Of a stretch of DNA of 64,000 nt, positions 701 through 55,505 are shown in pieces. Under the pieces are notes generated by a model, which was not told the DNA's origin, did no database searches, and saw only the letters and a list, made by a program, of their open reading frames with translations. Positions within the stretch are counted from its first letter, which is position 1. Every line of letters begins with the position of its first letter. This DNA comes from Lachnospiraceae bacterium. GTDB lineage: Bacteria > Bacillota > Clostridia > Lachnospirales > Lachnospiraceae. Location: assembly GCA_017938145.1 (NCBI GenBank), contig JAGBCB010000041.1, positions 42,084 through 106,083 of the forward strand, read 5' to 3'. A program made the translations under genes and the position numbers.

Positions 701-1471
701 CTAAAAGCTTTTTCCACCTTCAATCATAATTCTAAAGGCATTCCACCAATTCATACCATAGCTATTATGTTTTCTAAGTGCATCTTGCAAGCATAATATT
801 CTCCACCAATGCTTTGATATAGCTCTATAAAGCACACCTTGGTCGTTAATATATTTTTGATCATATCCATTATTCCATGTAGATAAACGCTCATCTGTTA
901 ATTTAGCTATGTAATACGGAACTGCATATATTTTTAACCCTTTCTTTAAACACTCCGTCAGGAAAAGATTATCTTCACCATGACAATAAGAGGTTCCTCC
1001 GCCAAAACACTGATTAAAATATATGGCATTTTTCTTAACGCTATTTGTTCTAACAGCTACTCGCGCAGTCCCATAACGTAAATAGTTATAATATCTTACC
1101 CTATGTTTATTTTTAATAATATATCTAGAACTATTTTCCTCATGCAAATTAAATATAATGACATCTGCATCCTTACATTCCTCAAATGCTTTATCCACTA
1201 TTTTATCGTATCCATCCACATACACCATATCATCATCAGCAAATAAACAAACATCTGCATCAGCCCTCATAAGTGTATTATTTCGATTTAATCCTACTCC
1301 GCGTTCCTCAAAATTAAAATATGTAATATTCTTCCCGTTCCATGAAAAATTTTCGATGAAACTTTTATCACATTGATTACCTATCAGCGCATCTGTTTGA
1401 ATATTCATCTTATCAAGTAGAGAATGGTCATCTTGTTTCATAGTTGCTACGAGCACTTGCACTGTAATCAT
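701..1471 (-). CDS. Glycosyltransferase family 2-like protein
   Basis: A 256-residue protein with a GT-A type fold: an N-terminal strand 'MITVQVLVATM', a GVGLNRN segment near residue 60 and the acidic 'LFADDDMVYVDGY' motif (DDD, metal and nucleotide-sugar binding) near residues 76-88. A downstream GGGTSYCHGED segment resembles the catalytic-base region of family 2 enzymes. It probably adds one sugar to the growing repeat unit in the cytoplasm. It lies 35 nt from the family 4 enzyme and 10 nt downstream of another family 2 gene, so it is co-transcribed. Base composition is AT-rich, like the rest of the operon and unlike the element to the right. Specificity is unknown. Confidence 0.75.
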   Translation of the reverse strand: MITVQVLVATMKQDDHSLLDKMNIQTDALIGNQCDKSFIENFSWNGKNITYFNFEERGVGLNRNNTLMRADADVCLFADDDMVYVDGYDKIVDKAFEECKDADVIIFNLHEENSSRYIIKNKHRVRYYNYLRYGTARVAVRTNSVKKNAIYFNQCFGGGTSYCHGEDNLFLTECLKKGLKIYAVPYYIAKLTDERLSTWNNGYDQKYINDQGVLYRAISKHWWRILCLQDALRKHNSYGMNWWNAFRIMIEGGKSF

Positions 1472-1481
1472 TATTAACTCC

Positions 1482-2234
1482 TCACTTTATGCGAAAAACT
1501 TTTAATACAACCCAAAAACAAATGTGAAATATCGAACGTGGAACACTCAAATGCTCTATTTCACGGTACAAAATCCAATGATACTTTACTACCTTAAGTT
1601 TATTACTTGATATGGAATTTTTCCGTACTCGATATTTCATTAGCACTTCTGGCATTCCATATATATATTTTTCCTTTTTTAACATTTGTAGCCACAATGC
1701 ATCATCGTTTCTTTTTCGAATATTCGGAACTTCAAACTTTCCCATTTGTCCTACATTATAAACCACTGTAGAATTTCCTACGGGACAATCCAATAACAAA
1801 CGATTATAATTTGTCCTCTTTACAGTCTTAATAATTCGTCCATTAGCCTTACCGGTTTCATCAATTTGCTCATACGCAGTACACGTAAAATTATAATTAT
1901 TCAATTTCATAAAAGATATTTGCTTGTCCAATTTATCCGGCAACCACAAATCATCGCTATCTAAAAAGGCCATATATTCGCCATTAGCATTTTTCATAGC
2001 CTCAGTCCTTGCAATTGCAGCGCCAGAATTTTCTTGTAAACAAATATACTTTATTCTATTGTCTACTTCTAAAAATTTACTGACAATTTGTTTTGTATTA
2101 TCATTCGAGCAATCATCCACAATAATAATTTCCCAATTTTGATAAGTCTGTGCTAATACACTTTCGATAGTTTCCGCAATAAAATTCCCACAATTATAAG
2201 TAGGCATAATAACCGATACAAGATCTTTTTCCAT
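1482..2234 (-). CDS. Glycosyltransferase family 2
   Basis: 250 residues, clearly family 2: 'VSVIMPTYNCGNFIAETIES' at the N-terminus, IIVDDCSNDNT near residue 40, and 'YMAFLDSDDLW' near residue 90 (the DxD metal/nucleotide-sugar site). The C-terminus ends in a hydrophobic segment (IFHICFWVVLKVF) that may anchor the enzyme at the membrane. It would transfer a sugar onto an undecaprenyl-linked intermediate. It is followed closely by a second family 2 gene and preceded by a 163-base gap after the initiating transferase gene. That gap holds no ORF; the only structure I see is a short imperfect hairpin near 2320. Confidence 0.85.
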   Translation of the reverse strand: MEKDLVSVIMPTYNCGNFIAETIESVLAQTYQNWEIIIVDDCSNDNTKQIVSKFLEVDNRIKYICLQENSGAAIARTEAMKNANGEYMAFLDSDDLWLPDKLDKQISFMKLNNYNFTCTAYEQIDETGKANGRIIKTVKRTNYNRLLLDCPVGNSTVVYNVGQMGKFEVPNIRKRNDDALWLQMLKKEKYIYGMPEVLMKYRVRKNSISSNKLKVVKYHWILYREIEHLSVPRSIFHICFWVVLKVFRIK

Positions 2235-2397
2235 TACGCATCACCCTCATTCTAAATGTTATATGTGTTGCAAAATGATTCGCTTATCAGAGAGCAGAGG
2301 TTTGTTTATTGTAATTAAGAAGACTTATCTTCATCACAAATCAAAAAAATAATATAAACCATTTCCCTTCAACCTGATAATTACCTAAACGTGACAT

Positions 2398-3099
2398 TCA
2401 TTCTTCAGAGAAATCTTTGCCCAATACCGTAAATACTGTTTGAAACATAATTTTTACATCATTGATCAGGCTAAACTTTCGCATTGCCGCAAGATTATAT
2501 TTCATTTTCTGCGGAAGTATTTGATGAATATATACATTTTCAGCATCAGCTGCACTGGTTAACATTTTATCTTCATCCTTATACTTAATGCTTGCTTCAG
2601 AAGTAATTCCAGCTGGCAAGAGCAGTGTAGCCCACATGCTCTTAGAATAATGTTCAACATATTTAACAGCTTCAGGCCTTGTTCCTACAAATGTCATAGT
2701 TCCTCTTAACACATCAATCAACTGCCCTAACTCATCAAGTCTTAACTTACGAATTTTCTTTCCTACACGAGTAATACGAGTATCATTGTCAACAGTAATA
2801 TGCATGCCACCATCTGCATTTTGTACCATCGTCCGGAACTTAAATATTCTAAATGTCTTGCCATATTGTGTCACTCGCTCTTGCCTATAAAATACTGGTC
2901 CCTTAGAATCAATTTTTATTGCAACTGCTAATATCACAAATACCGGAGAACAAATGACTAATAATAAAAAAGATACTACTACATCAAAAGCTCGTTTAAG
3001 CAACAAACTTCCTTTTCTTCTTCTTAATATCATGTAATATTCTTTTACTTCATCAGATTGCATTTGTACTGGCAACTCTTCCCACTCTACTAATCTCAT
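2398..3099 (-). CDS. Initiating polyprenyl-phosphate sugar-phosphate transferase (PglC/WcaJ type)
   Basis: 233 residues of the bacterial sugar transferase family, which moves a sugar-1-phosphate from a nucleotide sugar to undecaprenyl phosphate and starts repeat-unit assembly at the membrane. Visible: a re-entrant membrane helix after 'LLKRAFDVVVSFLLLVICSP' (about residues 33-60), the 'FRIFKFRTM' motif, and the 'RLDELGQLIDVLRGTMTFVG' plus TRPE block that carries the catalytic residues. Length fits the short monotopic PglC class rather than the five-helix WbaP class. Its ATG overlaps the aminotransferase stop by 4 nt (3096-3099), so the two are translationally coupled. Together with the acyltransferase and aminotransferase it suggests a diacetamido-sugar (bacillosamine-like) first residue; that is inference. 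Confidence 0.9.
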   Translation of the reverse strand: MRLVEWEELPVQMQSDEVKEYYMILRRRKGSLLLKRAFDVVVSFLLLVICSPVFVILAVAIKIDSKGPVFYRQERVTQYGKTFRIFKFRTMVQNADGGMHITVDNDTRITRVGKKIRKLRLDELGQLIDVLRGTMTFVGTRPEAVKYVEHYSKSMWATLLLPAGITSEASIKYKDEDKMLTSAADAENVYIHQILPQKMKYNLAAMRKFSLINDVKIMFQTVFTVLGKDFSEE

Positions 3100-4313
3100 A
3101 AATATCTTCCTACAATTTCACAATATGTACTAATTACATACTCTATTTCTTCATTTGTTAAACAAGTATGCAATGGCAAAGTAATTTCTTTAGCAAAATG
3201 CATATAAGCATTCGGGAAATCTTTTATATCTAAGCCGTAAGCTTTATAAGCCGTCATCATAGGCAATGGCTTATAATGTACATTACAAGCTATCTCCCTT
3301 TCTGCCATTTCTAATATAATAGCATTTCGCTGTTCCTCGTTTATTCCCGGAATTTTAGTAATATAAAGATGTCCCGATGAATACCTGTCTTTTTCATAAT
3401 GTGGTAATACTTCTATTCCCAAAGGAATAAATTGCTCATTATATTTTTCAATAATTTCCTTTCTTCTCATTAACAAGCTATCATACTTTCTCTGCTGTGC
3501 AATTCCTACCGCAGCAGCGATATCTGTCATATTACACTTATAATACGGTGCTACAATATCATACTCCCATGCTCCTAATTTAGTTTTTGCCAAAGCATCC
3601 TTCGACTGTCCATGTAGTGACAATAACATATACTGTCCATACAGTTCATCATCACTTATTGCCGAATTCTTCTTCCATGTTATTGCTCCGCCCTCAGCAG
3701 TAGTTAAATTTTTAACAGCATGAAATGAAAAGCTAGTAAAATCTGCAATTGCTCCACACATAACTTTATTTCCAGCCATATCCTTAATATATGCACCATA
3801 TGCATGTGCTGCGTCTGCCATAATAACTATTCTGCCAAATTTTTCTTGAATACTTGTCTCCGGAGTAAATAAGTATTTCTTTTTCTCTACAATGTCATAT
3901 ATCTTTTGATAATCACATACTATTCCTGCTAAATCCACAGGAATAATAACTTTCGTTTTTTCTGTTATCAAACTTTCCAATTTTTCGTAATCCATTTCAA
4001 GCGAATCATTTGCACTATCCACGAATACTGGTGTTGCTCCCACATGACATACTACACTTGCTGTCGCTGTATATGTATAGGCTGGAACTATAACTTCATC
4101 ACCGGCTTTAACTCCCAATATCCGCAATGTCAATTCCATGCATGCTGTCGCAGAGTTAAGACATACAGCCCTATTAGTTCCACAATAATTTGCTATAATT
4201 CTTTCAAATTCTTTTGTCTTTGGTCCGGTGGTAATCCATCCGGATTTTAACACTTCTCCTATTTCGATAATTTCCTCATTTCCAATATCTGGCGGTGAAA
4301 ACATAACTTTCAT
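3096..4313 (-). CDS. DegT/DnrJ/EryC1/StrS (PglE-like) sugar aminotransferase
   Basis: 405 residues of the PLP-dependent sugar aminotransferase family, which converts a keto-sugar nucleotide to an amino sugar. 'DEVIVPAYTYTATASVV' (about residues 73-90) and ADAAHAYGA are family signatures; the Schiff-base lysine is expected in 'SFHAVKNLTTAEGG' near residue 205. 'PYYKCNMTDIAAAVGIAQ' is the usual later motif. Start ATG 4313 has a good GGAG ribosome site. In this cluster it sits with a PglD-like acyltransferase and a PglC-like transferase, the gene set used for UDP-diacetamido-sugars, so it probably makes the 4-amino intermediate. No dehydratase is seen in the window. Confidence 0.9.
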   Translation of the reverse strand: MKVMFSPPDIGNEEIIEIGEVLKSGWITTGPKTKEFERIIANYCGTNRAVCLNSATACMELTLRILGVKAGDEVIVPAYTYTATASVVCHVGATPVFVDSANDSLEMDYEKLESLITEKTKVIIPVDLAGIVCDYQKIYDIVEKKKYLFTPETSIQEKFGRIVIMADAAHAYGAYIKDMAGNKVMCGAIADFTSFSFHAVKNLTTAEGGAITWKKNSAISDDELYGQYMLLSLHGQSKDALAKTKLGAWEYDIVAPYYKCNMTDIAAAVGIAQQRKYDSLLMRRKEIIEKYNEQFIPLGIEVLPHYEKDRYSSGHLYITKIPGINEEQRNAIILEMAEREIACNVHYKPLPMMTAYKAYGLDIKDFPNAYMHFAKEITLPLHTCLTNEEIEYVISTYCEIVGRYL

Positions 4314-4352
4314 AATCTTTTTCTCCTTTCAAAAATAAAATCATATAAATAG

Positions 4353-4367
4353 GTGCTTACAAAGCAC
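4353..4367 (-). terminator. Weak hairpin between glycan-operon genes
   Basis: Perfect 6-bp arms GTGCTT/AAGCAC with a 3-nt loop in the 130-base gap between the 315-residue membrane protein gene and the aminotransferase gene. Only a loosely T-rich stretch follows on the minus strand, so it is more likely a partial terminator or mRNA stabiliser than a full stop. Nothing else was recognised in this AT-rich gap. Confidence 0.3.
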
Positions 4368-4443
4368 GAAAAATACGTTTCAATGTAGTATTTTAGTAGT
4401 AAAAAACATAAAACAAATCATCAACTTAATAATATTTTATAAA

Positions 4444-5391
4444 TCACTCTAGATTATACCACGGGCGGAAATCCGCTCTCCATATCCACTCGTCAACATA
4501 ATAACCTGTCCATATTTTTGTAACAGCATATTCTGTTGGTAATGAACATTTAGCAACGCGATATTTTCCTGTGTTCCAAGTTAATAATTCATTCTCTTCA
4601 AATTTAAAGCTTCTATTATCCCAGAGCCAATTATTTTCCAAGCGTTCAGAAGGTAATTTGTCAATCTGTGTTGTACTCATTTGATATTGCACATCAGTAT
4701 TTCCCTTTAAAAATTGAAATTCACCATCAATAATCCAATATAAGTCATTTTCATATTGATATATGTACACACATTTATTTTTATTATAATAACGAACTTT
4801 TCCAAGTCTTATAATTCGTTCCAAATCCGTTCCTTCTATTTCTGGCTCACAAAACTCATTAGGATTTACGCAACTCAACTCATTCTCTGAATAATAAAGT
4901 CCCGTATAATACCCTAATCTACTGTTCTTTGGACGTAATATAATTGTATATGTATTTCCATCCAAATCTAACTTTCTTGTAGATATACTTGCCAAAAAGC
5001 CCGAATATTTATAATCGTACTCACACTTAAAATAATCATTTACATTATCATTTTTAGAATACTCCATTTTAGGATAAAATCGCTCTTTTGTCTCAATATT
5101 TTCTAAGATTATATCAAATGCTTCATTAGATGAATCCATTCCTTCTTTAAATGCCCATCCTTTTATAAATACCTTTCCTTCATCTTCATACATTTTGTCA
5201 ATTTGATACACCCACGAAAAATTATCCTGTACTACATCATATCTTCGTTGTAGATATGTTATACTTGGCACATATACTACAACTAATACCAACATTGAAA
5301 TCACAAAAAAAATAAGTTGCTTTGGTACGCTCTTCGTAATACTATTAAAAAAACGTAAGCTTTTATTTGATTTCTTTTTTTTATTAAGCAT
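4444..5391 (-). CDS. Membrane-anchored protein of unknown function in the glycan operon
   Basis: 315 residues that I do not recognise. A Lys-rich N-terminus is followed by one membrane helix (about residues 27-47, 'LIFFVISMLVLVVVYVPSI'), and the remaining 265 residues are soluble, rich in Tyr, Trp and Asn, probably extracytoplasmic. The early segment 'GKVFIKGWAFKEG' resembles small beta-sandwich modules seen next to glycosyltransferases in surface-glycan loci, but I cannot name a family. Second gene of the operon, starting 41 bases downstream of the acyltransferase stop, with a strong AGGAGG site. A role in glycan export, attachment or regulation is possible from context only. Confidence 0.6.
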   Translation of the reverse strand: MLNKKKKSNKSLRFFNSITKSVPKQLIFFVISMLVLVVVYVPSITYLQRRYDVVQDNFSWVYQIDKMYEDEGKVFIKGWAFKEGMDSSNEAFDIILENIETKERFYPKMEYSKNDNVNDYFKCEYDYKYSGFLASISTRKLDLDGNTYTIILRPKNSRLGYYTGLYYSENELSCVNPNEFCEPEIEGTDLERIIRLGKVRYYNKNKCVYIYQYENDLYWIIDGEFQFLKGNTDVQYQMSTTQIDKLPSERLENNWLWDNRSFKFEENELLTWNTGKYRVAKCSLPTEYAVTKIWTGYYVDEWIWRADFRPWYNLE

Positions 5392-5432
5392 TGCACAGTC
5401 CTCCTCTTATATGCACAGCATATAATTAATAT

Positions 5433-6113
5433 TCAAAAAACATCTCGGCTTCCAACCATAAAACCATCTGGTAACTTTTTACCTTTTTGAATTATTCCCC
5501 CACAATCAATGTGAGAATAGCTACCTATAGTACAACCATAATTAACCAAACTATTCGATGCTAATATGCAGAAATTTCCTATCTCAGCATTATTAACAGT
5601 ACTCTGCGGCATTATGGCTACTCCTTCACCTATTTTCGCATCCTTTGATATATTTGCTGCAGGAGATATGATGTTTGGTATTAAGAAATTGCATTCCTTT
5701 AGGAAATTAGCATACTTCTTTCTTATTTCATTGTTACCAATTGCCACAAAAGCACATGGGTATTCGTATTTAAAATTAAGTGCTTCGGAGCATTTACCTA
5801 TGATGTCCTCTCCGGTTTCGTTATCATCCAGGAAAGATATCTTTTGGAACACCCGAAGGGATTCTGCTATCTCCTTTACGCTCCGTCCATGGCTCCCGGC
5901 TCCTAGTATAAGGAGGTTCATTTTAACCGGTGCGGGTTTTACTTCTTCAGTTATTGAAAAAAGCTCATTTCGCTTTTTTATAACCTCTTCCTCCGACTGG
6001 CCGTAAACTGCGCCATACACAGCCCGCCCGTTTGCAGAATAGCCCTTGACATATCTGGCTTCCCAGCGTCCATCATTCCGTTTGTATACACCTTTTAATT
6101 TCTTTGTTTCCAA
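5433..6113 (-). CDS. PglD/NeuD-like sugar O/N-acyltransferase fused to an integrase-type arm DNA-binding domain
   Basis: 226 residues in two parts. Residues 1-50 (LKGVYKRNDGRWEARYVKGY, then YGQSEEEVIKKRNELF) match the three-strand AP2-like arm-binding domain found at the N-terminus of tyrosine integrases. From about residue 65 the protein is a NeuD/PglD acyltransferase: Rossmann start 'MNLLILGAGSHGRSV', then hexapeptide repeats of the left-handed beta-helix (ISKDAKIGEGVAIMPQ, NAEIGNFCILASNS, GSYSHIDCGG). The usual catalytic His is probably in the SHID or nearby turn. Start is TTG 6113 with AGGAGAGG nine bases upstream; a nearby ATG is out of frame. First gene of the glycan operon, directly behind the 6158-6186 promoter. 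Acetylation of a UDP-amino-sugar is likely; the role of the arm domain is unknown. Confidence 0.85.
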   Translation of the reverse strand: METKKLKGVYKRNDGRWEARYVKGYSANGRAVYGAVYGQSEEEVIKKRNELFSITEEVKPAPVKMNLLILGAGSHGRSVKEIAESLRVFQKISFLDDNETGEDIIGKCSEALNFKYEYPCAFVAIGNNEIRKKYANFLKECNFLIPNIISPAANISKDAKIGEGVAIMPQSTVNNAEIGNFCILASNSLVNYGCTIGSYSHIDCGGIIQKGKKLPDGFMVGSRDVF

Positions 6114-6157
6114 GATGACATACCTCTCCTTATAAATTAAAGCCTATAATCCTTTTG

Positions 6158-6186
6158 ATTATACCACACCCCATAGCAGTGGTCAA
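6158..6186 (-). promoter_or_regulatory. Sigma-A promoter of the glycan operon
   Basis: On the minus strand: -35 TTGACC (6181-6186), 17-base spacer, -10 TATAAT (6158-6163), about 45 bases before the TTG start of the acyltransferase gene. Close to consensus, so strong basal transcription is expected. Confidence 0.8.
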
Positions 6187-6233
6187 TCCATAAAATCGGC
6201 TTTTTCTTCTTTTTTCTTTTTGGTCATTTTTGG

Positions 6234-9044
6234 TCATTTCGTTATGTTTTGATTTTTTTCTCCTATAGTTTGTTTATCCCTCTTTTCATACCAAACCATT
6301 CCAATCGTCTCCAACTTTTTTATCTGTTCCTCTGTAATTTTTCTTTCTTTAGGATTATTGTTCTTATAACGTTTCCGCATATCCATTTTCCACTGCCACA
6401 GTTTTTCTCCTGTCCGAGTGGTATAGTCCACAGGCATTTCCAAACTGCCATGGCACTGGTAATAGTTTTTCATTTCTTCATACATCCTGTTCCAGTAATG
6501 CTCCGTATAGTCCCAGATAAAACCGCACTTATTCAAGTGTTGCTCTCTGTCAGGTGCTAATTTATTTTTCCGTTTCAGACTCCGCTGCCTTGCTGCCCAT
6601 TTACCAAGCAGATATCCATCCTCAGTTATATAACTGACCGGAATCAGCAGTGAATGGTGTTCTTTTTTATATTTTTTCAATTCTTCCATACCTTTTTCAA
6701 AATATGTATCAGATTTTAACTCCCACTCCAGTCCAATTGCCTGCAGCTTTTCTATTTGGTCCTTAGTAAGTAGCCTGCGGTTCCTGCCATTTCTGCGGTA
6801 AGCATCCTGTTGTGATGTAAGCCATTCAAATAGTCCCCTGCCCCTTGGTCCTTTTAATGCCGCCGGAACCGGAAGCAGATGCCCATGTACTTCATAGTAA
6901 TGCTTTGCCTCCTCATACATTTCCTCCCACAGAGTATCATTCACTTTCCATATCATACCAGCATCATTTAATTTCTGTTCCTGCTCTATGGTTATAAAAC
7001 ACTTAGGGCATTCCGCGCCTTCAGGCAGCAGCCTCTGCAGCTTATTGTGCGAGTATTTTGACCTGAGCGTCAACACCCATTGTCCAAGAGCGACACCATC
7101 TTTTGTTACATATGTCTTTCTTACCAGTGTGTCCCCGTTATCTATCCTGTACTGCACCAAAGCTTTTAACTTAGTTTCAAATAACTCCTCCTCTGATACC
7201 GGCTCCCATATCATATGCAGCTTATCCAATTTCTCCTTCTGTTCCTTTGTCAATATTCCTCTTATTTTTCCCAGGTACACATTCCGCTGCGTTGCTATCC
7301 ATGCGCCAAGATTGATACCATCTTCCGTTTTATATTTTCTTCCAATCTTCAAATGTCCATGAGTTTTATAGAATGCCTCAGCCAGTTTATAATTTCTTTC
7401 CCAGAGGCTGTCCAGTGCACTCCATGAAAAGCCAATAGCTTCCAAACGCTCTATCTGATGTTTGGTAAGTTTCTTTTGATGATAAGCTGTTCTTGTATTA
7501 CAGACATATAAACCAAGTTTCTTTCCTTCCGGTGTTACATACGAACCGGGAACCAGCAGATGTCCGTGCTCTATTTTATACCGTACCAGGTCATTATACC
7601 ATCCCTCAAAATTTACCTCTTTATCCGTCCGAAAGTCTACGCCCAGCTCCGCAAGAAGTGATGCCTTTTCTTCCGGAAGCTTTCCTGCCCGGCAGGTGCT
7701 CCTTTGGCGGTTCAGCCACTTACCAAGCGCAAGTCCATCTTCTGTCACATAGCGTCTTGGAAGTTTCACATGCCCGTTAACTGCCTTATAATGCACCAGT
7801 TCCTGATAATACCGTTCCCAGGATGACTCCAGGTTCTTCACAAGTACAGAAAACAGTTCTCTGCTGTCCCTTAACTCATCAATCACATTAAAATCGTCAT
7901 AAACTACATATTCTCCCTGTACTGCAAGCTTTTTCCGGAGCGCAGTAAATTCATGCTGCAGGTCGCGAATGTTATACAGACTGTCGAAATTGTTGACCAT
8001 ATCAAAGATAAGCGGGCTGCCCTTTGCATCTGAAGCCAGCGCACGGCCAATCTGCTGCTTATAAATGATTGGAGATATGGTAGGACGTAACAGGATGACA
8101 CCATCCACATCATCCACATGGATACCTTCATTCAGCATATCAATCGTAAACAATAACTTAATATGGTCACTGTCGTCCTCCTGAAATGCCTTAAAGTCAG
8201 CATCTGCATCCACATTATAGCAATGCACGCAGTATACATGTGGAAGCCGGTCTATTTCCGCAAACCATTCCGGTACCCGGGTCATCATTTCATACATTTT
8301 ATCAAGGTTTGTGCAGAACACAATAAACCTGCCGTTTTTCTTTTTGATATGCTTTGCAAATACCCGGCTCATGTCCTGCGCCTGTTCAACGGAACTGCGG
8401 AGTTTTTCCAATACCCGGACGTTTTCCTGCTTAAGGACTGCATTCTGCTGTTTACTGATGCGCTCCTCATATTCTTTTAACTTTTCCTGGTAGTAATAAG
8501 CACACACCACATAAGTCGGTACAGGAAGGTATCCCCTTACCATAGCCTCCACCAGGTCAAATTCAGAGCAGATGTTACCGTCAAACAGTTCTTCTGCCAT
8601 ATTCCTGCGCTTATCCAGATAACGGATGTTTGTGGCAGTCATACCAAATAAGCATGCATCCGGATAGAGTTCCAGCAGCTTACTAATACTATTACCCCAG
8701 TATTTCGCCCCGCACCGGTGAAATTCATCCAGGATAATATAATCCGGATGCAGTTTATCCAAAGCATCCTTGTTTCTCATAAGCCACGCATAGGTATGAA
8801 ATTCCACATTATCAAAAGCAATCCCCTGCTTCCGCTTTAATTTTTCCACCTGAAGGCGGTAAATATATTCACTTGGTCCAAGCCACAAAAATTTTTCCAC
8901 CGGGTGGTCTTCTATCAGTTTAAAGGCGATATATGACTTTCCCGTTCCGGTTGGATGAACTACACATGCTTTTCGTTTTTCGGCAAGTGTTGCTTTTACT
9001 TTTGTATAAGCTTCCTGATTATGCTTATAAAGCTGAATTCCCAT
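6234..9044 (-). CDS. Superfamily II DEAD-like helicase with seven helicase-associated (HA) repeats
   Basis: 936 residues. The N-terminal half is an SF2 translocase: Walker A PTGTGKS (residues 31-37), DEFH box (106-109), 'FGMTATNIR' motif III, and motif VI 'QQIGRALAS' in the second RecA domain. From about residue 410 to the end there are seven copies of the HA domain, each about 65-75 residues with the pattern W-x-x-x-[YW]...HGH..[VI]P..Y.T.DG..LG.W...QR....L...Q...L...G..W. HA repeats bind nucleic acid in related proteins. Its ATG overlaps the upstream stop (TAATG), so it is coupled to the two-HA-repeat gene. Possible role in defence or element DNA processing; not assignable from sequence. 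Confidence 0.85.
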   Translation of the reverse strand: MGIQLYKHNQEAYTKVKATLAEKRKACVVHPTGTGKSYIAFKLIEDHPVEKFLWLGPSEYIYRLQVEKLKRKQGIAFDNVEFHTYAWLMRNKDALDKLHPDYIILDEFHRCGAKYWGNSISKLLELYPDACLFGMTATNIRYLDKRRNMAEELFDGNICSEFDLVEAMVRGYLPVPTYVVCAYYYQEKLKEYEERISKQQNAVLKQENVRVLEKLRSSVEQAQDMSRVFAKHIKKKNGRFIVFCTNLDKMYEMMTRVPEWFAEIDRLPHVYCVHCYNVDADADFKAFQEDDSDHIKLLFTIDMLNEGIHVDDVDGVILLRPTISPIIYKQQIGRALASDAKGSPLIFDMVNNFDSLYNIRDLQHEFTALRKKLAVQGEYVVYDDFNVIDELRDSRELFSVLVKNLESSWERYYQELVHYKAVNGHVKLPRRYVTEDGLALGKWLNRQRSTCRAGKLPEEKASLLAELGVDFRTDKEVNFEGWYNDLVRYKIEHGHLLVPGSYVTPEGKKLGLYVCNTRTAYHQKKLTKHQIERLEAIGFSWSALDSLWERNYKLAEAFYKTHGHLKIGRKYKTEDGINLGAWIATQRNVYLGKIRGILTKEQKEKLDKLHMIWEPVSEEELFETKLKALVQYRIDNGDTLVRKTYVTKDGVALGQWVLTLRSKYSHNKLQRLLPEGAECPKCFITIEQEQKLNDAGMIWKVNDTLWEEMYEEAKHYYEVHGHLLPVPAALKGPRGRGLFEWLTSQQDAYRRNGRNRRLLTKDQIEKLQAIGLEWELKSDTYFEKGMEELKKYKKEHHSLLIPVSYITEDGYLLGKWAARQRSLKRKNKLAPDREQHLNKCGFIWDYTEHYWNRMYEEMKNYYQCHGSLEMPVDYTTRTGEKLWQWKMDMRKRYKNNNPKERKITEEQIKKLETIGMVWYEKRDKQTIGEKNQNITK

Positions 9045-13855: not shown

Positions 13856-13920
13856 GGGGATATCACCTCTCCTTTTTTTCTTTGAGGTGATTATAGAAAA
13901 AGATTTGAAGAAAAGGAATA

Positions 13921-13951
13921 AACCACAAGTCAACCTTCTGACCTGTGGTTT
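13921..13951 (-). terminator. Hairpin between parR and the recombinase gene
   Basis: Inverted repeat with 12-bp arms (AACCACAGGTCA and TGACTTGTGGTT as RNA on the minus strand, one G-U pair) and a 7-base loop, followed by a moderately T-rich stretch. It ends the parM-parR transcript at least partly, leaving the recombinase at lower or separate control. Confidence 0.6.
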
Positions 13952-19566: not shown

Positions 19567-20103
19567 TTACACCTCTTTCTGCTTTGTAAGCTCAGAAAGG
19601 ATGTCTGCCATGTATCTGGCACAGCCGCGTTCCACTGGGGTTGCCTCCCTGAAATGAATCAGGATTACAGCACCCATCGGATTATTCTTGGTGCCAACCG
19701 GATACAGGGAATCCACCAAATACTTACTGTTTTCAAATAACCTCATCTGATCTGATTCCGTATACTGGTATTCCGTTGCGTTTGCGATATACCACCGTAC
19801 TTCTTCAGAAAGCAGGATATCCGTAGAAAAATTCATGCCTCTTGTTGCAATTACTTTCTCTGTACTGCTGACAATGCATATTGTTCTGCAGGACTTAAAG
19901 AAAGCGTCCAAATAAGTTTTGCACAAAGATTCTAATGTCTGTAATGGCTGATACTTTCTTACCTGGATTGTACGTCCGTATACACCAATTTCCACCGCAT
20001 CTTCCGATTCAATCTCCAGCTGTTTTCTTAATTCCTTCGGTATCACCACTCGGCCAAGATCGTCTACATGCCTGATGATTCCACTGCTCATTTCATTCTT
20101 CAC
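19567..20103 (-). CDS. AbrB/SpoVT-family transition regulator
   Basis: 178 residues. The first 55 are a swapped-hairpin AbrB domain: 'GIIRHVDDLGRVVIPKELRK' and EDAVEIGVYGRTIQVRKY. The rest is GAF-like, as in SpoVT. In Firmicutes this architecture regulates late sporulation genes. Here it sits on a mobile element whose insertion site is a spore-coat gene, so a link to the host sporulation programme is worth noting, though only by inference. Stop is 5 bases from the methylase start. Confidence 0.85.
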   Translation of the reverse strand: MKNEMSSGIIRHVDDLGRVVIPKELRKQLEIESEDAVEIGVYGRTIQVRKYQPLQTLESLCKTYLDAFFKSCRTICIVSSTEKVIATRGMNFSTDILLSEEVRWYIANATEYQYTESDQMRLFENSKYLVDSLYPVGTKNNPMGAVILIHFREATPVERGCARYMADILSELTKQKEV

Positions 20104-30337: not shown

Positions 30338-31258
30338 CTATGTGTTATATTCCACCGGGCGGCTGAGTTTTAGAATCTTGGTAAACGAGAAAAGAATAAT
30401 AGCCGCACAGATGGCTAACGTAATCTTTCCCGGTGTGGAAAACATCAGTGTTTCAAACCATGTTTTATTCAAAACATATAAAAGAGGAATGTTGCCTATC
30501 ACAAGAAACATCATAGTGATTGCTTCCTTCTTTGGCTCATTTATCATCGCCTCCAGCTCCGACTGCATAATCCTCATGTCAGAAAACTTCTGTACCGTAA
30601 AAGTCAGCGTGTTTTTCATGCTTCTGTCACTCTGGCACTGGATCAGTGTATTGCACCATTCATGGAAGATACGGTTTGGTACCCTCATCTTCAGAGTGTT
30701 AATAGTGGAGATCATATTGGCATTTAACATCTCCGACTCCAGCACAAAAGCTTCGAAATGATTTTTTACCGGAGGATTTAAGTACGGGATATTTTCCTTT
30801 ACGGACTTTAATATGTCCCCGGTGCGAAGATATGAAGTGGTAATCACTGAAATTGCTGTTTCCAGTTCCTCATTCAGGTGCTTTTTATAGGACGCCGCTG
30901 TGGATCTTAAATACCATACCGGTGCAAATGCAAAGCCGGCACCCATAATCGGTATCATGAACGGATTATCAATCAGAATAGCTGCAATGGCGCCAACGGA
31001 GAACAGGATAATGGAAATTCGTTTTACCATGTTAAATCTGCCTTCCCTTCCGGTGGCAATCAACAGCTGCTCAATCTCTAATGTCTCCCTGTTAAAAAAT
31101 CCTTTCGCCGGTTTTCCAAGCAGCACATCCACATCATCCTGCAGTGTACTTTTGACCTGTGGAGATAAAAGGTTTAGGAAATCAATAAAGCGTACATGAA
31201 AGAGCGAAAACAGCCCGCTAACTATCAGCAGGAATACAATAATCTGAACCCATTGCAT
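30338..31258 (-). CDS. TadB-like inner-membrane pilus assembly protein (GspF fold)
   Basis: 306 residues. Membrane helices at about 4-24, 85-120 and 255-300; T2SF domain 'EELETAISVITTSYLRTGDI' with SVKENIPYL. Start ATG 31258 has GGAGGG and lies 41 bases inside the end of the CpaF gene, so translation is coupled. Works with TadC and CpaF to extrude pilin. Confidence 0.8.
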   Translation of the reverse strand: MQWVQIIVFLLIVSGLFSLFHVRFIDFLNLLSPQVKSTLQDDVDVLLGKPAKGFFNRETLEIEQLLIATGREGRFNMVKRISIILFSVGAIAAILIDNPFMIPIMGAGFAFAPVWYLRSTAASYKKHLNEELETAISVITTSYLRTGDILKSVKENIPYLNPPVKNHFEAFVLESEMLNANMISTINTLKMRVPNRIFHEWCNTLIQCQSDRSMKNTLTFTVQKFSDMRIMQSELEAMINEPKKEAITMMFLVIGNIPLLYVLNKTWFETLMFSTPGKITLAICAAIILFSFTKILKLSRPVEYNT

Positions 31259-32645
31259 TCATTGTCCCTCCTCTCATTGCCCCATTCTCATTAGAATCCA
31301 AAAATAGTTTCAACTTTCCTGCCGGAATACCGTTATCTAACATCCGTTTTTTCAAAGACTCTGAAATTCCACCAAGCTTCCTGTGGCTGCCAAGAACTGA
31401 AATCTTGCCACTCTCATCCGTGCGGTTATCCTCCACATCATACTGATACAACGGACGGTAATACAGTTTTCCGTTCCGGTAATCCTCACCCTCAATAATC
31501 TGCATGATTTTTCTGGATCCATCTTCTAACTGCTTGGTAAATACAACTATCGGATATGCCTCCACCATAATCTGCATCAGGATATCATCCGCCATGTTGT
31601 ATTTTCTCTTTGCCAGAGTCATCATTCTTCGGTACGTGGATTCTGACGAATTGGAATGGATGGTTGTGACTACCGTATGGCCTGTTCTGGAACTTTCCGC
31701 AACCGACAATGCTTCCTTGGCAGAACGCATCTCACCTACCCCAATCACATCCGGATGTTTTCTAAGTACACGTTCCAGTAGAACGTCCTGGTCAATATCC
31801 AGTGCCGGGTTTTCATGCGGCCTGGTAAGCAAGTGGACGACGCTGTTAATGGCATGTCCGTTCTCATCCCTCTTAATCAAATCAAATTCCCGGCTTCCTT
31901 CTTCAATGGTAATCAGTCGCCGGTTGTCCGGCACCATGGAAAGCAGCCAGCTCATAACCGTAGTTTTTCCGGAACCGGTGCTTCCGGCAATGCATACTGA
32001 AACACCATACCGGATGCAGCAAGTTAAGAAATCTAACATCTCCTCTGTTGCAGAACCGGAAGCAATCAGCTTATCCTTGGATACCGACTGCTGGTTGACA
32101 ATTCGGATAGAAGCATTGATGCCTACCTCCGCATCCACAATCGGAGTCTTGTCTACGGAAATTCGGATATTCTTATCTAAGAATCCGATGACAGATGGCA
32201 TAGTATCATCAATCACCATACCACAGGTGTTAAGGAGACGTCGGGTTACATCCACGGCATGCTGCGGAGACTGAAACCGGTCCGGAATTTTCATGGAACG
32301 TCCACCGCTCATAATAACTTCGATATCATCAAAGGCATTGATATTTACCTCTTCAATCCCCGGTTTGTAAATCCATTTCTTTAAAAAAGAAATTCCGGCC
32401 ATATCCTCAAACAGGCTGTCTTTTAATTCCTCCGTTGTCATTCCATCGATATGATAGGATTTACTGAGGATATACTGCAGAATAAATTCTTTTAATAACA
32501 GTTTTGCCTCTTCCTGATTTCCTTCCGTGGTTAACTTATCCGCATGATTTACAGTGCAGTATTTCTGTACATCCTCCAAAATCTGGTCATACGTTACCAC
32601 CTCCTGCCCGGCAGAAGCAAAAAACATATCATTCAATGACTGCAT
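31218..32645 (-). CDS. cpaF: CpaF/TadA (VirB11-like) secretion ATPase
   Basis: 475 residues. Walker A 'IAGSTGSGKTTVMSW' at about 226-240, Walker B/His boxes 'RRLITIEEGSREFDL' and 'HPDVIGVGEMRSAKEAL', and arginine-rich 'TTIHSNSSESTYRRMMTLAK'. N-terminal domain 'FLKKWIYKPGIEEVNINAFD' is typical of CpaF. Hexameric motor that powers pilus assembly from the cytosol. Overlaps neighbours by 17 and 41 bases. Confidence 0.9.
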   Translation of the reverse strand: MQSLNDMFFASAGQEVVTYDQILEDVQKYCTVNHADKLTTEGNQEEAKLLLKEFILQYILSKSYHIDGMTTEELKDSLFEDMAGISFLKKWIYKPGIEEVNINAFDDIEVIMSGGRSMKIPDRFQSPQHAVDVTRRLLNTCGMVIDDTMPSVIGFLDKNIRISVDKTPIVDAEVGINASIRIVNQQSVSKDKLIASGSATEEMLDFLTCCIRYGVSVCIAGSTGSGKTTVMSWLLSMVPDNRRLITIEEGSREFDLIKRDENGHAINSVVHLLTRPHENPALDIDQDVLLERVLRKHPDVIGVGEMRSAKEALSVAESSRTGHTVVTTIHSNSSESTYRRMMTLAKRKYNMADDILMQIMVEAYPIVVFTKQLEDGSRKIMQIIEGEDYRNGKLYYRPLYQYDVEDNRTDESGKISVLGSHRKLGGISESLKKRMLDNGIPAGKLKLFLDSNENGAMRGGTMNAMGSDYCIPADS

Positions 32646-42075: not shown

Positions 42076-44013
42076 TTACGACATAATTGATTTTTTATCA
42101 GTTGCAACAATAACACTGTCATTACTAAAATATCCCTCCGGCCACTCAACATCGGTTTCTTCCTGAATCTGCACGGATGACTCCTTCTTTACCCTCTTCT
42201 TTTTTTCTTTTGGCTTTGGTTTCAGAAGACTGGTAAAATCTGCTTCTTCCCTTTCCGGATTCCTCCTCCATTCCGGTACATGTTCGCTTGCTCGGCATAC
42301 CTTAATTTTTTTGCTTTCCGGATGCAGTGTATAGTCATACTTCTCTACCTTCAGCACTTTCTGGCCTCTTAATATAATGAGTGCCTGGTCCAGGGGCAGA
42401 CGAAGTACCTCATCCGGAGTCATCAGCTTTCGTTTTCCTACCGAACTCGTCTGCCGGTAATCAGGGGTATAATCAGAAATCCGCATGGCATTTAGCTGTT
42501 TCGCCTCCGTCGATACAGCCACACTTACCTCACCAGTCCGGTTACTAATAAATTCAGCTGTCATTTCATCGGTGCACCCAAGAAACAGTTGGGTATCACA
42601 GTTACCGATAATCTCCTGCCATTTATTATCCGGATACCGGTTCTGCATCTGGGGCAGGTTCTGGAAAATACAGCTGATGGACAATGCCCTGGAACGGATA
42701 GTGCTGATTTTCTTCGTCAGATCTGCAATAGTACATCCGCCATTGGCCAGTTCATCTGCCAGAATATGTACCGGTACAGGAAGCCTGCCACCCTCACCAT
42801 ATTTATCCGCATACTTCACTAACTTAATAAATACAAACGACATAAACAAAGAAGATAAAAAGTCAAATGCGGAATCCTGATCGGATGTGATACAAAAGTA
42901 AGCACATTTCTTTTGTCCCGGTAAGGTCAGACTGATTTCATCGAAGCTTGTGATTTTACAGATTAACTTATTCTGGAATACCTGCAGCCTGGTACCAAGG
43001 CCGATAATTACACCGCTGCGGACCGAATCCGCTGCCTGTTGAAAAATGTTATACGGTGCTTTAGCCGGATGGGAAACCGGAAGCAGGTCAAATAAACTGT
43101 TAAGCTCTTTTTCAGAATTTAGAGTCAGAAGCTTATACACCTGCCCAATGTTTTTTCCTTCCAGCGGGAATCCCTGGTCCACATACAGGACAAGTGCCTT
43201 TAACAGATTCATTTCTGCATTGTCCCAGAAATGATCTCCCTTCTCCGAACCGGTATTCTTTATGATTACATCACAAAATAACTGCGCCATAATCTCCTGC
43301 CCTTCCACCTCCGCCAGACAGTTCCAGCTGTCAGAGTTTTCCGGATCCACGAGATTAAATACCCGGACCAGATAATCATTTTCCTCCAGATACCATTTCA
43401 TATCCCCGTAAAGCTCGGATTTCGGATCTGTGATAACCAGGCTTTCTCCTCTTGCAACGCACTGGAAGATGACATTCCTTGCATATGCACGGCTTTTCAT
43501 GGAACCACTGGCACCAAACACAGCTACATTTCGGTTCATCCTTGTATGTTCCGGCAGACAGACTGCCTTACCTTCCAGTTTTCCCAGAATCACACCCTTC
43601 GTCTGTGATACATCTGATACCAGTTCCAGTACCTTATTCATTTCCGGCTCACTCATAAATCCGGAAGTTCCATAGGTGCCTTTATCCGAATATGTCAGGT
43701 TACGTTCCTTATCAAAGGTCCCTTTTCCACCAAATCCCATTCGCATGACAAAAATAATCAATACCCCAAATAAAACAGAGCAAAATAAAAGGCCGTACAA
43801 GTTATACGGTACTACTGTCATTGCTTTTATACAGGCTGCGATTTCACCGGACGGAAACTTTGGGGCTGTTTCATAACCAAAAACCGACCCATTGTCATTC
43901 CACTCATTATAGTTAATCATGAACTGCGCTATAAAGCCGCTGGCATAAAGAATCACAAAAAGAAGCACCGGTAATACAACACAGATGCATACCGTTTTCT
44001 TTTTATCCCACAT
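42076..44013 (-). CDS. virD4: VirD4/TraG-type coupling protein
   Basis: 645 residues from ATG 44013, with AAGGAGG 12 bases upstream. Two N-terminal membrane helices (VLPVLLFVILYASGFI; GLLFCSVLFGVLIIFVMRMG). Walker A 'AVFGASGSMKSRAYARNVIF' near residue 160-175, Walker B 'PVHILADELANGGCTIADLT', and 'CIFQNLPQMQNRYP'. Hexameric ATPase that hands the DNA-relaxase complex to the secretion channel. The basic, Glu/Lys-rich C-terminus is long. Overlaps the next upstream gene by 11 bases. Confidence 0.9.
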   Translation of the reverse strand: MWDKKKTVCICVVLPVLLFVILYASGFIAQFMINYNEWNDNGSVFGYETAPKFPSGEIAACIKAMTVVPYNLYGLLFCSVLFGVLIIFVMRMGFGGKGTFDKERNLTYSDKGTYGTSGFMSEPEMNKVLELVSDVSQTKGVILGKLEGKAVCLPEHTRMNRNVAVFGASGSMKSRAYARNVIFQCVARGESLVITDPKSELYGDMKWYLEENDYLVRVFNLVDPENSDSWNCLAEVEGQEIMAQLFCDVIIKNTGSEKGDHFWDNAEMNLLKALVLYVDQGFPLEGKNIGQVYKLLTLNSEKELNSLFDLLPVSHPAKAPYNIFQQAADSVRSGVIIGLGTRLQVFQNKLICKITSFDEISLTLPGQKKCAYFCITSDQDSAFDFLSSLFMSFVFIKLVKYADKYGEGGRLPVPVHILADELANGGCTIADLTKKISTIRSRALSISCIFQNLPQMQNRYPDNKWQEIIGNCDTQLFLGCTDEMTAEFISNRTGEVSVAVSTEAKQLNAMRISDYTPDYRQTSSVGKRKLMTPDEVLRLPLDQALIILRGQKVLKVEKYDYTLHPESKKIKVCRASEHVPEWRRNPEREEADFTSLLKPKPKEKKKRVKKESSVQIQEETDVEWPEGYFSNDSVIVATDKKSIMS

Positions 44014-45127
44014 CTGTAATGTACCTCCTTTTAAACTTCTCCAAATCAATAGTTTCAAGCATGACTGCCCCACCAAAGTACTCTTCCAGCGCTTCTTTCT
44101 GGAAATCAAAACAGATAACTTTTCCTTTGAGTCCATGAAGCGACAAGTATGTAAAGAACCTGGTTATTCTTAACATTTCAAAATCATGGCACAGTAGAAC
44201 CGGTAAACCTTCACTGACAGCATCATGCTCCAGCCCCAGTGTTCTGTCCGCCGGAAGAAGGTCTGAAACCAAAAGCTTCTCCAGCTCATTTCTTAGCTCC
44301 GCATTACAAAGTAACTGAAGCATCACCTCCCCTTCTTTGGATGCAGGAATAAAATGATAGCCATCGAAGCTTGCATCCAGACAGAAGAAACTCTTTTTAT
44401 ATCCGCCGGTACTTTTCATCAGCTTTACGGCCATGTCCATGTTTTCTCCGATTATCAAAGCCCTGATTGGTGTATCCGGATGGTACCAGGGATAGAAATT
44501 ATTTTTTGATAACACACCCCGGCTGGCATGGAACTGAAGCAAGGTCTTTACTTTCAGTTCTGTCCGGTACTCCCATTTCATTAAGGAACCTCCGGTATAA
44601 TAAACTGCATATAAACGTCTTGGCGCCAGTAAAACTCCCATCGTTCTTGAGTTATTGATTTTCACCGCTTCTGCTCCAAGTTCCTTTACCTCTCTTGCCT
44701 GATAAAATGCAGGGAGTTTTAGATTCCGCTGCTTCGTGGCATCTTGGGTAAACAGAAATTTCTTCTCATCGCGATACAGACTAACGCCTGCATTCTGCAG
44801 CATGACATATACAATAGAAGTCTGCTGAAGTCTGAGCCTTCGTGTAAAATCGCTCCTCGGGCGGTTGGTATCTGTATTCCCGCTTAGATAAAACAAAAAC
44901 CGGTCCGGGTTACTGCCAATCAGAAACTTTTTGCCCCTGTTCGTCAGTCTGTATCCCCGCAACCGGTCCCTATAGTGGGTTTTTATGTAACCCTCATCTT
45001 TTAATTTAGTAATAAGCTTTTCCGCATAACTTGGACTTATTCCCATATAGGTTATTATGTCTACGCTGCATTCTCCGGAAAGTGCAATCAATGACAGCAA
45101 TTGATATGCACAGGTATCAGTTTCCAA
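44003..45127 (-). CDS. Winged-helix protein of the transfer region (function unknown)
   Basis: 374 residues from TTG 45127 (AGGAGG nine bases upstream). Residues 1-70 form a winged helix ('YMGISPSYAEKLITKLKDEG', YIKTHYRDRLRGYRLTNRG). The remainder is alpha/beta and not recognised; the layout resembles replication-relaxation-type proteins found beside TraG in Firmicutes elements, but the match is weak. Preceded by a 173-base gap with duplicated CCGTTAAAAATCC. Confidence 0.55.
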   Translation of the reverse strand: METDTCAYQLLSLIALSGECSVDIITYMGISPSYAEKLITKLKDEGYIKTHYRDRLRGYRLTNRGKKFLIGSNPDRFLFYLSGNTDTNRPRSDFTRRLRLQQTSIVYVMLQNAGVSLYRDEKKFLFTQDATKQRNLKLPAFYQAREVKELGAEAVKINNSRTMGVLLAPRRLYAVYYTGGSLMKWEYRTELKVKTLLQFHASRGVLSKNNFYPWYHPDTPIRALIIGENMDMAVKLMKSTGGYKKSFFCLDASFDGYHFIPASKEGEVMLQLLCNAELRNELEKLLVSDLLPADRTLGLEHDAVSEGLPVLLCHDFEMLRITRFFTYLSLHGLKGKVICFDFQKEALEEYFGGAVMLETIDLEKFKRRYITDVG

Positions 45128-54267: not shown

Positions 54268-54415
54268 AATTTCACCTCTTCATTTGATTTAAAATTGTAA
54301 TTAGAAATGGCTTATTCTATCATTTTTTCCTGGCTAATTTTTTCGATTTTTTTCGTATTATTTATGTCACTCCTCAACGGTTTTATCACGTTTCTAAGGG
54401 TTTTTGTTGTTCTTA

Positions 54416-54835
54416 TCAAGTCGTGGCATCTGCTGCCAGATCTTCATGCAGGTCTGTAATCGGGTCACCTTTGGACTGGACATAAGCTGCTGTCCAAGGT
54501 TCGCCGGTTGCACTTGCAGGATAAATACCGAGGGTATGGTCAACATAGTAATTGGCAAACGGTGTGCCTTCAATCTGCTCTGCCGTTAAGTTTCTTGTTA
54601 ACTGATGAACAATGGAAGAAATAATTTCCTCATGGGCCATTTCCTCCGTACCGATATCCGTGAGCAGGCCTGCTACATTGCTGTACGGCATGGAATATCT
54701 CTGGGAAATATATCTGGTTGCTGCTCCCTTTTCACCGTCCGGGCCGCCAAGCTGGGTCATAATCACCATGGCAAGCTTCGGATTGGTGGTGGTGATGTTT
54801 ACCGGATACTGTAATCTTTTTTCATAACTCCACAT
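54416..54835 (-). pseudogene. cotJC: cotJC, interrupted 3' end (manganese-catalase-like spore coat protein)
   Basis: 139-residue frame, of which about 131 match CotJC: MWSYEKRLQYPVNI, 'LGGPDGEKGAATRYISQRYS', 'LTDIGTEEMAHEEIISSIVH', 'YVDHTLGIYPASATGEPWTA' and ending DLHEDLAAD. Family members are about 190 residues and go on after this with EQKARATY and a last helix containing conserved metal-site residues; here the frame turns into ATT and a TGA. The break is therefore at the element junction. Metal-binding Glu/His of the last helices are lost, so the product should be inactive unless the element excises. Confidence 0.85.
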
Positions 54836-54851
54836 ACTTCACTACCTCCTT

Positions 54852-55115
54852 CTAATAATTCTGCCATGGCCACGGACCATCGGACCATCTCCAGTTATCA
54901 CAACCGGACTCTACATTACCGTACATAGTAAGCGGTCCGAACTGCGCTTCATAGGCGTCCACCGCTGCTCTGCGCTGTTCCTGAAGCTCATCAAAGTAAG
55001 TCAAAGCTTCGTTGCAGTTTGGATGGGTGTCCAAGTAGAGTCTTAAGTCATCCATGGTAAAACTGATTTCCATAATTCTCATCATAAGAGGATGTTTACA
55101 CATAACTACCGGCAT
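54852..55115 (-). CDS. cotJB: Spore coat protein CotJB
   Basis: 87 residues: 'ISFTMDDLRLYLDTHPNCNE' then ALTYFDELQEQRRAAVDAYE and 'YGPLTMYG'-like FGPLTMYG, the CotJB family pattern; the tail is Trp/Pro-rich (WRWSDGPWPW). Length fits the family. Two bases after cotJA stop and 16 before cotJC. Confidence 0.9.
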   Translation of the reverse strand: MPVVMCKHPLMMRIMEISFTMDDLRLYLDTHPNCNEALTYFDELQEQRRAAVDAYEAQFGPLTMYGNVESGCDNWRWSDGPWPWQNY

Positions 55116-55117
55116 AC

Positions 55118-55435
55118 CTAATTACATCTCCTTCCTGCAAAATCCAGATTCAATTCCGCAAACATGGTTCCGTTACGTAACGCCTGCGGCTGTGCATAAA
55201 TATTTCCGTAGTCCTGCCACGGTACATAAGCCATGGCAATCGGGCAGTCTCTTAATGTTGTTTCTTTATTGCATGCAGCTTCTGCACAGCCGCCTACAAT
55301 AATGTTTCCGGCCACTGCATTGTTGCAGCAGGAAGCCGTCTGAACCGGTACCGCATTACAGCAGCCCCGGTTCACAACCGCACTTGGTCTTCCCGAACGT
55401 CCGGAATAGCAATTGTTTTGTCTATTTACATTCAT
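55118..55435 (-). CDS. cotJA: Spore coat protein CotJA
   Basis: 105 residues from ATG 55435; an earlier in-frame ATG (55468) lies inside a hairpin and is unlikely. The C-terminal half 'CPIAMAYVPWQDYGNIYAQP' with ALRNGTMFAELNLDF is the CotJA signature. The N-terminal half is Cys/Asn-rich, which many clostridial CotJA proteins have. AAGGAAGG lies 7 bases before the ATG and is paired in the 55436-55489 hairpin. Confidence 0.85.
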   Translation of the reverse strand: MNVNRQNNCYSGRSGRPSAVVNRGCCNAVPVQTASCCNNAVAGNIIVGGCAEAACNKETTLRDCPIAMAYVPWQDYGNIYAQPQALRNGTMFAELNLDFAGRRCN

Positions 55436-55489
55436 AAAAAAACCTTCCTTTTCATAAAATGGTTTCATTACATTCTATGAACCGGAAGG
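55436..55489 (-). terminator. Terminator of dinB-dinG, overlapping the cotJA ribosome site
   Basis: CCTTCC/GGAAGG arms with internal TTCATA/TATGAA pairing, then seven T on the minus strand, directly followed by the cotJA ATG. The 3' arm is the cotJA Shine-Dalgarno (AAGGAAGG), so the hairpin can stop upstream transcription and also mask translation. Confidence 0.7.
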
Positions 55490-55505
55490 CTTTTGGTTCC
55501 TTTAT

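Follow-up and report, generated by a model that had tools for sequence, protein, structure and literature searches.

The spore-coat gene cotJC of this gut bacterium was found to be cut at codon 136 by a site-specific element, which, as genome comparisons demonstrated, is driven by a large serine recombinase (LSR) and carries conjugation genes. Judging from promoter patterns and from precedent, the excision of such cotJC elements is likely to be controlled in a skin-like manner. The window is the whole stretch of DNA analysed, 64,000 nucleotides long, and corresponds to positions 42084-106083 of contig C31 in a Lachnospiraceae genome (G000) of 72 contigs and 78% completeness. The features around the junction were as follows:

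54416-54835, minus strand: N-terminal part of cotJC, codons 1-136, then ATT and a stop codon
54429-54434, minus strand: shared junction sequence AGCAGA, with the putative core dinucleotide GA at 54429-54430
54406-54428, minus strand: element-side attP half-site, TGCCACGACTTGATAAGAACAAC in the sense of cotJC
54852-55115, minus strand: cotJB, assigned by position, an open frame just upstream of cotJC
55118-55468, minus strand: cotJA, assigned by position, the frame being taken from the first possible start
55470-55500, minus strand: sigma-K-like promoter of the cotJ operon, AC-N16-CATAGAATGT, recognised by eye with the -35 rule found in the available part of PMC3789822

The translation of 54416-54835 (minus strand) gave 139 amino acids ending in DLHEDLAAD, ATT and a stop, which bore out the original prediction that cotJC departs from its family after DLHEDLAAD and then stops. 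The same prediction held cotJA and cotJB to be intact, and open frames were present in both places; searched against NCBIfam, the cotJB frame received no useful name and the cotJA frame had no match. The Mn-catalase profile (PF05067) located the N-terminal part of cotJC at C31:96493-96918 and a C-terminal part at C66:81618-81773, both on the minus strand. The C-terminal part picked up at the stop point of the window copy (AEQKARTTYDNIL...), and its frame was a minus-strand ORF of 74 amino acids with its own ATG a few codons earlier, within element sequence. Moreover, C66 carried an LSR ORF of 523 amino acids with Resolvase, Recombinase, zinc-ribbon and DUF4368 domains (PF00239, PF07508, PF13408, and PF14287), the end of which lay about 130 bp from the C-terminal part of cotJC. 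A further Mn-catalase gene of this genome (C71:135261-135868) consisted of two abutting frames and was apparently frameshifted.

When the two parts were joined in silico, a CotJC of 198 amino acids was obtained. Its alignment with the intact CotJC of the same-genus genome G288 had no gaps and showed 81.8% identity. In G288, the left flank of the element (from C66) aligned to L216:16806..8814 and the right flank, which lies in the window, to 8819..840, so that both flanks were contiguous and met inside an intact cotJC. A seamless gene at the same position therefore exists, so that the original prediction passed the refuting check it had named; an attB does lie inside cotJC, and a precise join restores the reading frame. 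The same cut, at nucleotides 406-407 of cotJC, was present in dozens of loci, which excludes chance.

The junctions, in the sense of cotJC, were CTGGCAGCAGA|TGCCACGACTTGATAAGAACAAC and GTTGTTCTTGTTTGTTGTAGCAGA|GCAGAAGG, and had AGCAGA in common. The inverted arms in G000 were GTTGTTCTT...AAGAACAAC. Compared between elements, the 23-nt C-side arm of L029 was an exact inverted copy of the N-side arm of L010 around GA, while arms compared inside a single element were imperfect inverted copies. In L063, GA was the entire sequence common to the two junctions. These alignments identified the attP as an inverted arm pair around a GA core, and recombination of attL with attR would rebuild cotJC in frame, so that the interruption is reversible in principle. 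Stop-free cotJC-like joins were obtained from 37 of 45 N/C pairs (Parablautia intestinalis was counted twice, as L014 and L200), with the cores placed by the rule of the longest shared run. Among the other eight, one was missing, two contained stop codons, and this rule left five out of register. Three features expected of a skin-type interruption were found: insertion in a mother-cell gene, an LSR adjoining the junction, and a frame restored by a precise join.

The element filled the left part of the window and contained the following:

1-54428, no strand: inserted element interior, running left to C31:1 and then, by the simplest contig join, into C66
46621-49551, minus strand: VirB4-like conjugation ATPase, 976 amino acids (PF19044; NF045971 with E 2.8e-80, under its curated cut-off)
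42076-44136, minus strand: conjugative coupling protein, TraG/VirD4-like (PF02534, E 1.2e-44)
31218-32645, minus strand: type II/IV secretion ATPase (PF00437, E 6.7e-28)
19567-20103, minus strand: SpoVT-like regulator (PF15714, E 1.3e-6)
12005-13933, minus strand: second LSR, inside the element and away from the cotJC junction

The last 95 bp of C66 were the first of C31, and under this join the element was about 98.9 kb; under others it would be larger. The identical 95 bp also terminated contigs C41 and C54, and the C66-C31 join is therefore the simplest but not the sole possibility. Conjugation genes were present among the element proteins scanned with Pfam and NCBIfam, and an integrase, a conjugation ATPase and a coupling protein, as expected of an integrative and conjugative element, were found on two contigs joined by the simplest overlap. 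The VirB4-like ATPase, the coupling protein and the secretion ATPase agree with the conjugative element that had been proposed to the left of cotJC. The LSR named in that proposal exists at 12005-13933, but the junction enzyme was the one on C66; the window LSR was rejected as the att recombinase because it is far from the junction, whereas the C66 LSR adjoins it. Likewise, the proposed SpoVT-like gene was real, but nothing was seen that ties 19567-20103 to excision. Runs of ORFs resembling surface-glycan biosynthesis genes were noted by eye as cargo (701-5391 of the window and C31:24-42 kb). Near the shared 95-bp end, C41 had a tyrosine-integrase-like ORF (by eye), which, with the ends of C41 and C54, suggests a second related element in G000.

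The C66 LSR was searched in titled genome records, and the best 80 of at least 288 relatives were taken. A cotJC half cut at codon 136 was within the fetched flanks of 74 of these 80 loci, and the comparison established that these elements nearly always enter cotJC, which serves as a family-wide hotspot. The six loci without a cotJC half were L017, L049, L058, L073, L083, and L085, of which L058 and L073 reach a contig end. The 3' end of the LSR faced the junction in 120 of 134 LSR-junction pairs, from either side of the element. In the pairs L059/L060, L070/L071, and L010/L011, the LSRs had a nucleotide identity of 97-99.9%, compared with 63-68% for the cotJC halves. Such near-identical LSRs beside divergent halves indicate transfer between genera, and their presence at one base of cotJC in different genera indicates that the elements move between species. 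In L031/L033, the LSRs (97.6%) and cotJC halves (96.2%) were about equally close, and transfer was therefore not evident in every pair. Among the elements lying whole on one contig, the shortest measured 2.4 kb at site B (L158) and 3.2 kb at site C (L063). Broken additional LSR copies were observed within one cotJC element in Parablautia intestinalis (L014/L200) and in G060 (L189), and the C-terminal part of cotJC was duplicated in G060. L085, from Holdemanella biformis, had an LSR of the site-C type with no cotJC nearby; a frame that contains VAPEEKQ started directly after this LSR, and from the similarity of this motif to the cotJC site it may be a secondary site.

The joined CotJC protein was also searched in 299 genomes of the family, 182 of which gave a match, and 48 genomes were searched again (G000, G288 of the same genus, and 46 whose best scores were weak). 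The cuts fell at site A (about codons 28-32), site B (about codons 59-68, with several sub-sites), and site C (codon 136), and perhaps also near codon 165. More than one cut was found in G194 and G111 (A and B), G059 (A and C), and G173. L159 likewise had two or more insertions in one cotJC. The 126 LSR entries near junctions formed 5 clusters at 35% identity and 13 at 45% by single linkage. Among the matches listed for genomes G000-G139, 86 of 140 had a cotJC match, and 22 of the 86 had the cut gene only, strong best scores being taken as intact without individual inspection. These were G000, G003, G011, G012, G014, G016, G017, G027, G030, G036, G047, G057, G059, G060, G082, G097, G098, G106, G111, G122, G131, and G138. 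A contig ended at the cut in G011 and G016, and one cotJC half was not found in G017 and G057. Among cultured species, Clostridium fessum SNUG30386 and Parablautia intestinalis D8-82 had both cotJC halves in view, and Diplocloster modestus and Anaerotignum lactatifermentans DSM 14214 one each.

A conserved ORF of about 50 amino acids was found upstream of the LSRs of the site-C type. A loose rule extracted 57 of these ORFs, a few of them spurious, and 23 aligned sequences gave the consensus CxSVFKSGExTTxKxQFTxKWIELINxxEKxK. The ORF of G000 (56 amino acids) had no family match in Pfam or NCBIfam. The promoter upstream of the small ORF had the form NATAnn - GnAC(A/T)(A/T)G... - CATANNNT with a 15-nt spacer. 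The consensus for sigma-E takes the form KMATATT/CATACAHT. In a first test against the sigma-E consensus, 75 regions had a mean score of 11.56, compared with 10.59 in shuffles. A matrix was then trained on 20 host spoIVA promoters, the sites of which were chosen by the analyst's consensus. With this matrix, 57 of 74 site-C-type regions (including L049, L073, L083, and L085, which have no cotJC half in view) passed at p<=0.05 and 31 of 74 at p<=0.01. The p<=0.05 level was also reached by 4 of 13 LSRs located elsewhere and, at sites A and B, by 6 of 28. No site reached p<=0.05 in 17 of the 74, and the site picked in some of the 57 was off the conserved place; as the regions are related, they are not independent tests. 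The composite box ATA-nn-GnAC[AT]-CATA occurred in 54 of 88 site-C-type regions, to which some loci contributed two, against 0.07 expected. It was found in 3 of 27 regions of site-A/B LSRs, and was absent from the reverse strand, from 16 LSRs elsewhere, and from 20 spoIVA promoters. In G000, the equivalent promoter TACTATA-GGACATGCAAAGGTT-CATATATTTGTA had a weak -35 and failed the strict composite box, and the matrix picked a different spot of this region with p=0.05. Accordingly, the skin-like sporulation control raised in the original prediction gained a sigma-E-like promoter at the level of the family, with a weaker counterpart in the window's own element.

The SpoIIID consensus is GGACAAG. 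In C. difficile it is given as KRTAACARK in the accessible text of PMC5025042, and the box in the small-ORF promoter fits the latter in part. The excerpt of PMC3789822 gives the C. difficile -35 as ATA for sigma-E and AC for sigma-K, with similar -10 elements. By this rule, the ATA-type -35 makes the small ORF look controlled by sigma-E, and sigma-K was rejected for it. The sigma-K-like AC-N16-CATAGAATGT also preceded cotJA in G288 (by eye). A sigma-A-like promoter preceded 41 of 78 site-C LSRs by a loose pattern used without a shuffle control; for the G000 LSR it was ATGACA-17-TACGAT, and the scan gave 8 sites compared with 4.5 expected.

These observations are probably best explained by a skin-like model, in which a small factor driven by sigma-E would trigger excision in the mother cell and cotJC would be rebuilt before sigma-K acts. 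The cotJ genes are used in the mother cell. As cotJC is needed only in this cell, which dies, it may be a harmless address for elements. The LSR would be made from an ordinary sigma-A-like promoter, and the protein of about 50 amino acids just upstream of it is a candidate directionality factor, whose sigma-E-type promoter, with the SpoIIID-like box, would fire in the mother cell. The element would then be excised there, as the promoters and the precedent of skin lead us to infer, with cotJC rebuilt ahead of the sigma-K transcription of the cotJ operon, and the chromosome that enters the spore would retain the element.

A plain insertion hotspot appears unlikely. Here, cotJC would be dispensable and silent in growth, and excision would be rare, stochastic and linked to transfer rather than to sporulation. 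The horizontal movement of the elements, the conjugation genes on the window's element, the sigma-A-like promoter before many site-C LSRs, and the scarcity of the sigma-E-like box at site-A/B LSRs are all consistent with it, and the intact halves could also result from recent and frequent insertion. In addition, mutants of two CotJC homologues of C. difficile are mildly affected, as cited in the part of PMC11222575 available. However, a sigma-E-like promoter conserved before the LSR-side small ORF, at a constant place and with a constant spacer, would not be expected from a plain hotspot. One-way insertion into a dead and decaying cotJC is very improbable. The N-terminal part does carry a stop codon and no restored gene was seen in the G000 assembly, but of 68 N-pieces only 4 had possible defects, as did 5 of 107 C-pieces, and part of these cases are alignments overrunning the junction; decay was rejected since the halves remain open frames. 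An artefact of the draft assembly (72 contigs, halves on separate contigs, and an overlap that also ends C41 and C54) has a negligible probability and is refuted by other loci in which the identical cut lies on one contig; among these are complete elements of 3-9 kb and a 23.7-kb element in the one-contig genome G282.

As a marker of sporulation in the hosts, SpoIVA passed the cut-off in 91 of the 140 genomes G000-G139. Its profile is about half of the protein; the matches spanned nearly the whole profile in all but G042 (53-237), in open frames of 342-574 amino acids. SpoIVA was present in 20 of the 22 genomes with interrupted cotJC in this sample (absent from G000 and G030) and in 23 of 26 genomes of a second set (absent from G000, G030, and G208, present in the same-genus G288, and in two pieces in G272, one at a contig start). 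Matches of the sigK type were nearly full length among those listed, and this control (TIGR02846) was blurred by sigma paralogues. G000 had no SpoIVA, no clear sigK among the matches listed, and half of spoIIID only, which is not decisive because the genome is 78% complete.

Other spore genes also lay beside LSRs. The gene spoIIID was split near residue 40 in G288 (L242) and G222 (L243), with the LSR reading into the C-terminal part. Both halves without an intact copy were found in 8 of 140 genomes, those of G093 being near contig ends; two more (G000 and G003) had the N-half only, which in G000 was at C14:54960-55079, and G115 had a different break. With the pattern used, no sigma-E-type site preceded the small ORF of the spoIIID elements, and the only one found was before spoIIID itself in L242. 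In G288, spoVAD was in two pieces (residues 2-203 and 201-327; L240/L244 and L245, on C17 and C26) with an LSR beside the C-terminal part, and it was intact in G000. The frames downstream of ten distant LSRs (33-48% identical) were named, and L107, L108, L112, L114, and L116 were left unscanned. Of the ten named frames, spoVAD, a nearly whole cwlD, a csp-type germination protease and a collagen-like protein occurred once each. D-Ala-D-Ala carboxypeptidases accounted for three, and the remaining three (nuclease, phosphoesterase, and galT) had no evident spore role. The related LSRs in L105, L117, L118, L106, L110, and L113 abutted frames of the csp-type protease, cwlD, collagen-like, and D-Ala-D-Ala carboxypeptidase kinds. 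A wider scheme, in which sporulation of gut Clostridia is built around many programmed excisions, is conceivable but rather doubtful. Elements in cotJC, spoIIID, spoVAD and other spore genes, some of them conjugative, would carry mother-cell switches; sigma-E would first release the spoIIID insert, SpoIIID and sigma-E would release the cotJC insert, and sigma-K would transcribe the rebuilt cotJ operon.

Among the matches listed from open-access literature, in the parts available, no description of an LSR element interrupting cotJC or spoIIID was found, and these sources give a handful of cases of sporulation-linked gene rearrangement in Bacillus, Geobacillus, and Clostridium or Clostridioides. 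In the present sample from one gut family, roughly one in four of the listed genomes with cotJC (22/86) apparently had the gene cut, and cultured species were among the carriers of cut copies. If this is true, gene splitting is common among gut spore formers, and mobile elements are able to insert into genes at little cost. Caution is also needed, as split genes may be mistaken for truncated or missing ones.

The skin element of C. difficile interrupts sigK, and its LSR CD1231 is made from a sigma-A promoter, while its directionality factor CD1234, of 72 amino acids, is under sigma-E and SpoIIID, according to the available text of PMC5025042. The cotJC elements were similar to skin in that an LSR element cuts a sporulation gene and a small ORF with a sigma-E-like promoter lies beside the LSR, a likeness in the layout of the circuit. 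They differed from skin in their target, in the conjugation genes on the element, and in a family that crosses genera. In C. difficile R20291, the phi027 prophage adjoins the CotJC homologue CDR20291_1465 (PMC11222575). Here too a Mn-catalase/CotJC-like gene has a mobile element as its neighbour, but the available portion of this source describes the two as adjacent, with no claim of interruption or restoration. The excerpted literature further reports SP-beta in spsM, vfbin in spoVFB, and vrin in spoVR (PMC4191935), gin in gerE, titled non prophage-like (PMC5595907), and yin in yabG (PMC10747680). These are likewise sporulation genes interrupted by LSR elements, and restoration by excision has been shown for several. 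Those elements are mostly prophage-like. In cotJC, several LSR lineages have used several sites, and a single copy of the gene sometimes carried two or more insertions. LSR transposons of the Tn5397/Tn4451 type (TndX and TnpX) have a GA core dinucleotide. The cotJC elements resemble them in the LSR and the putative GA core. Unlike these transposons, the cotJC elements were nearly all found at one site of cotJC.
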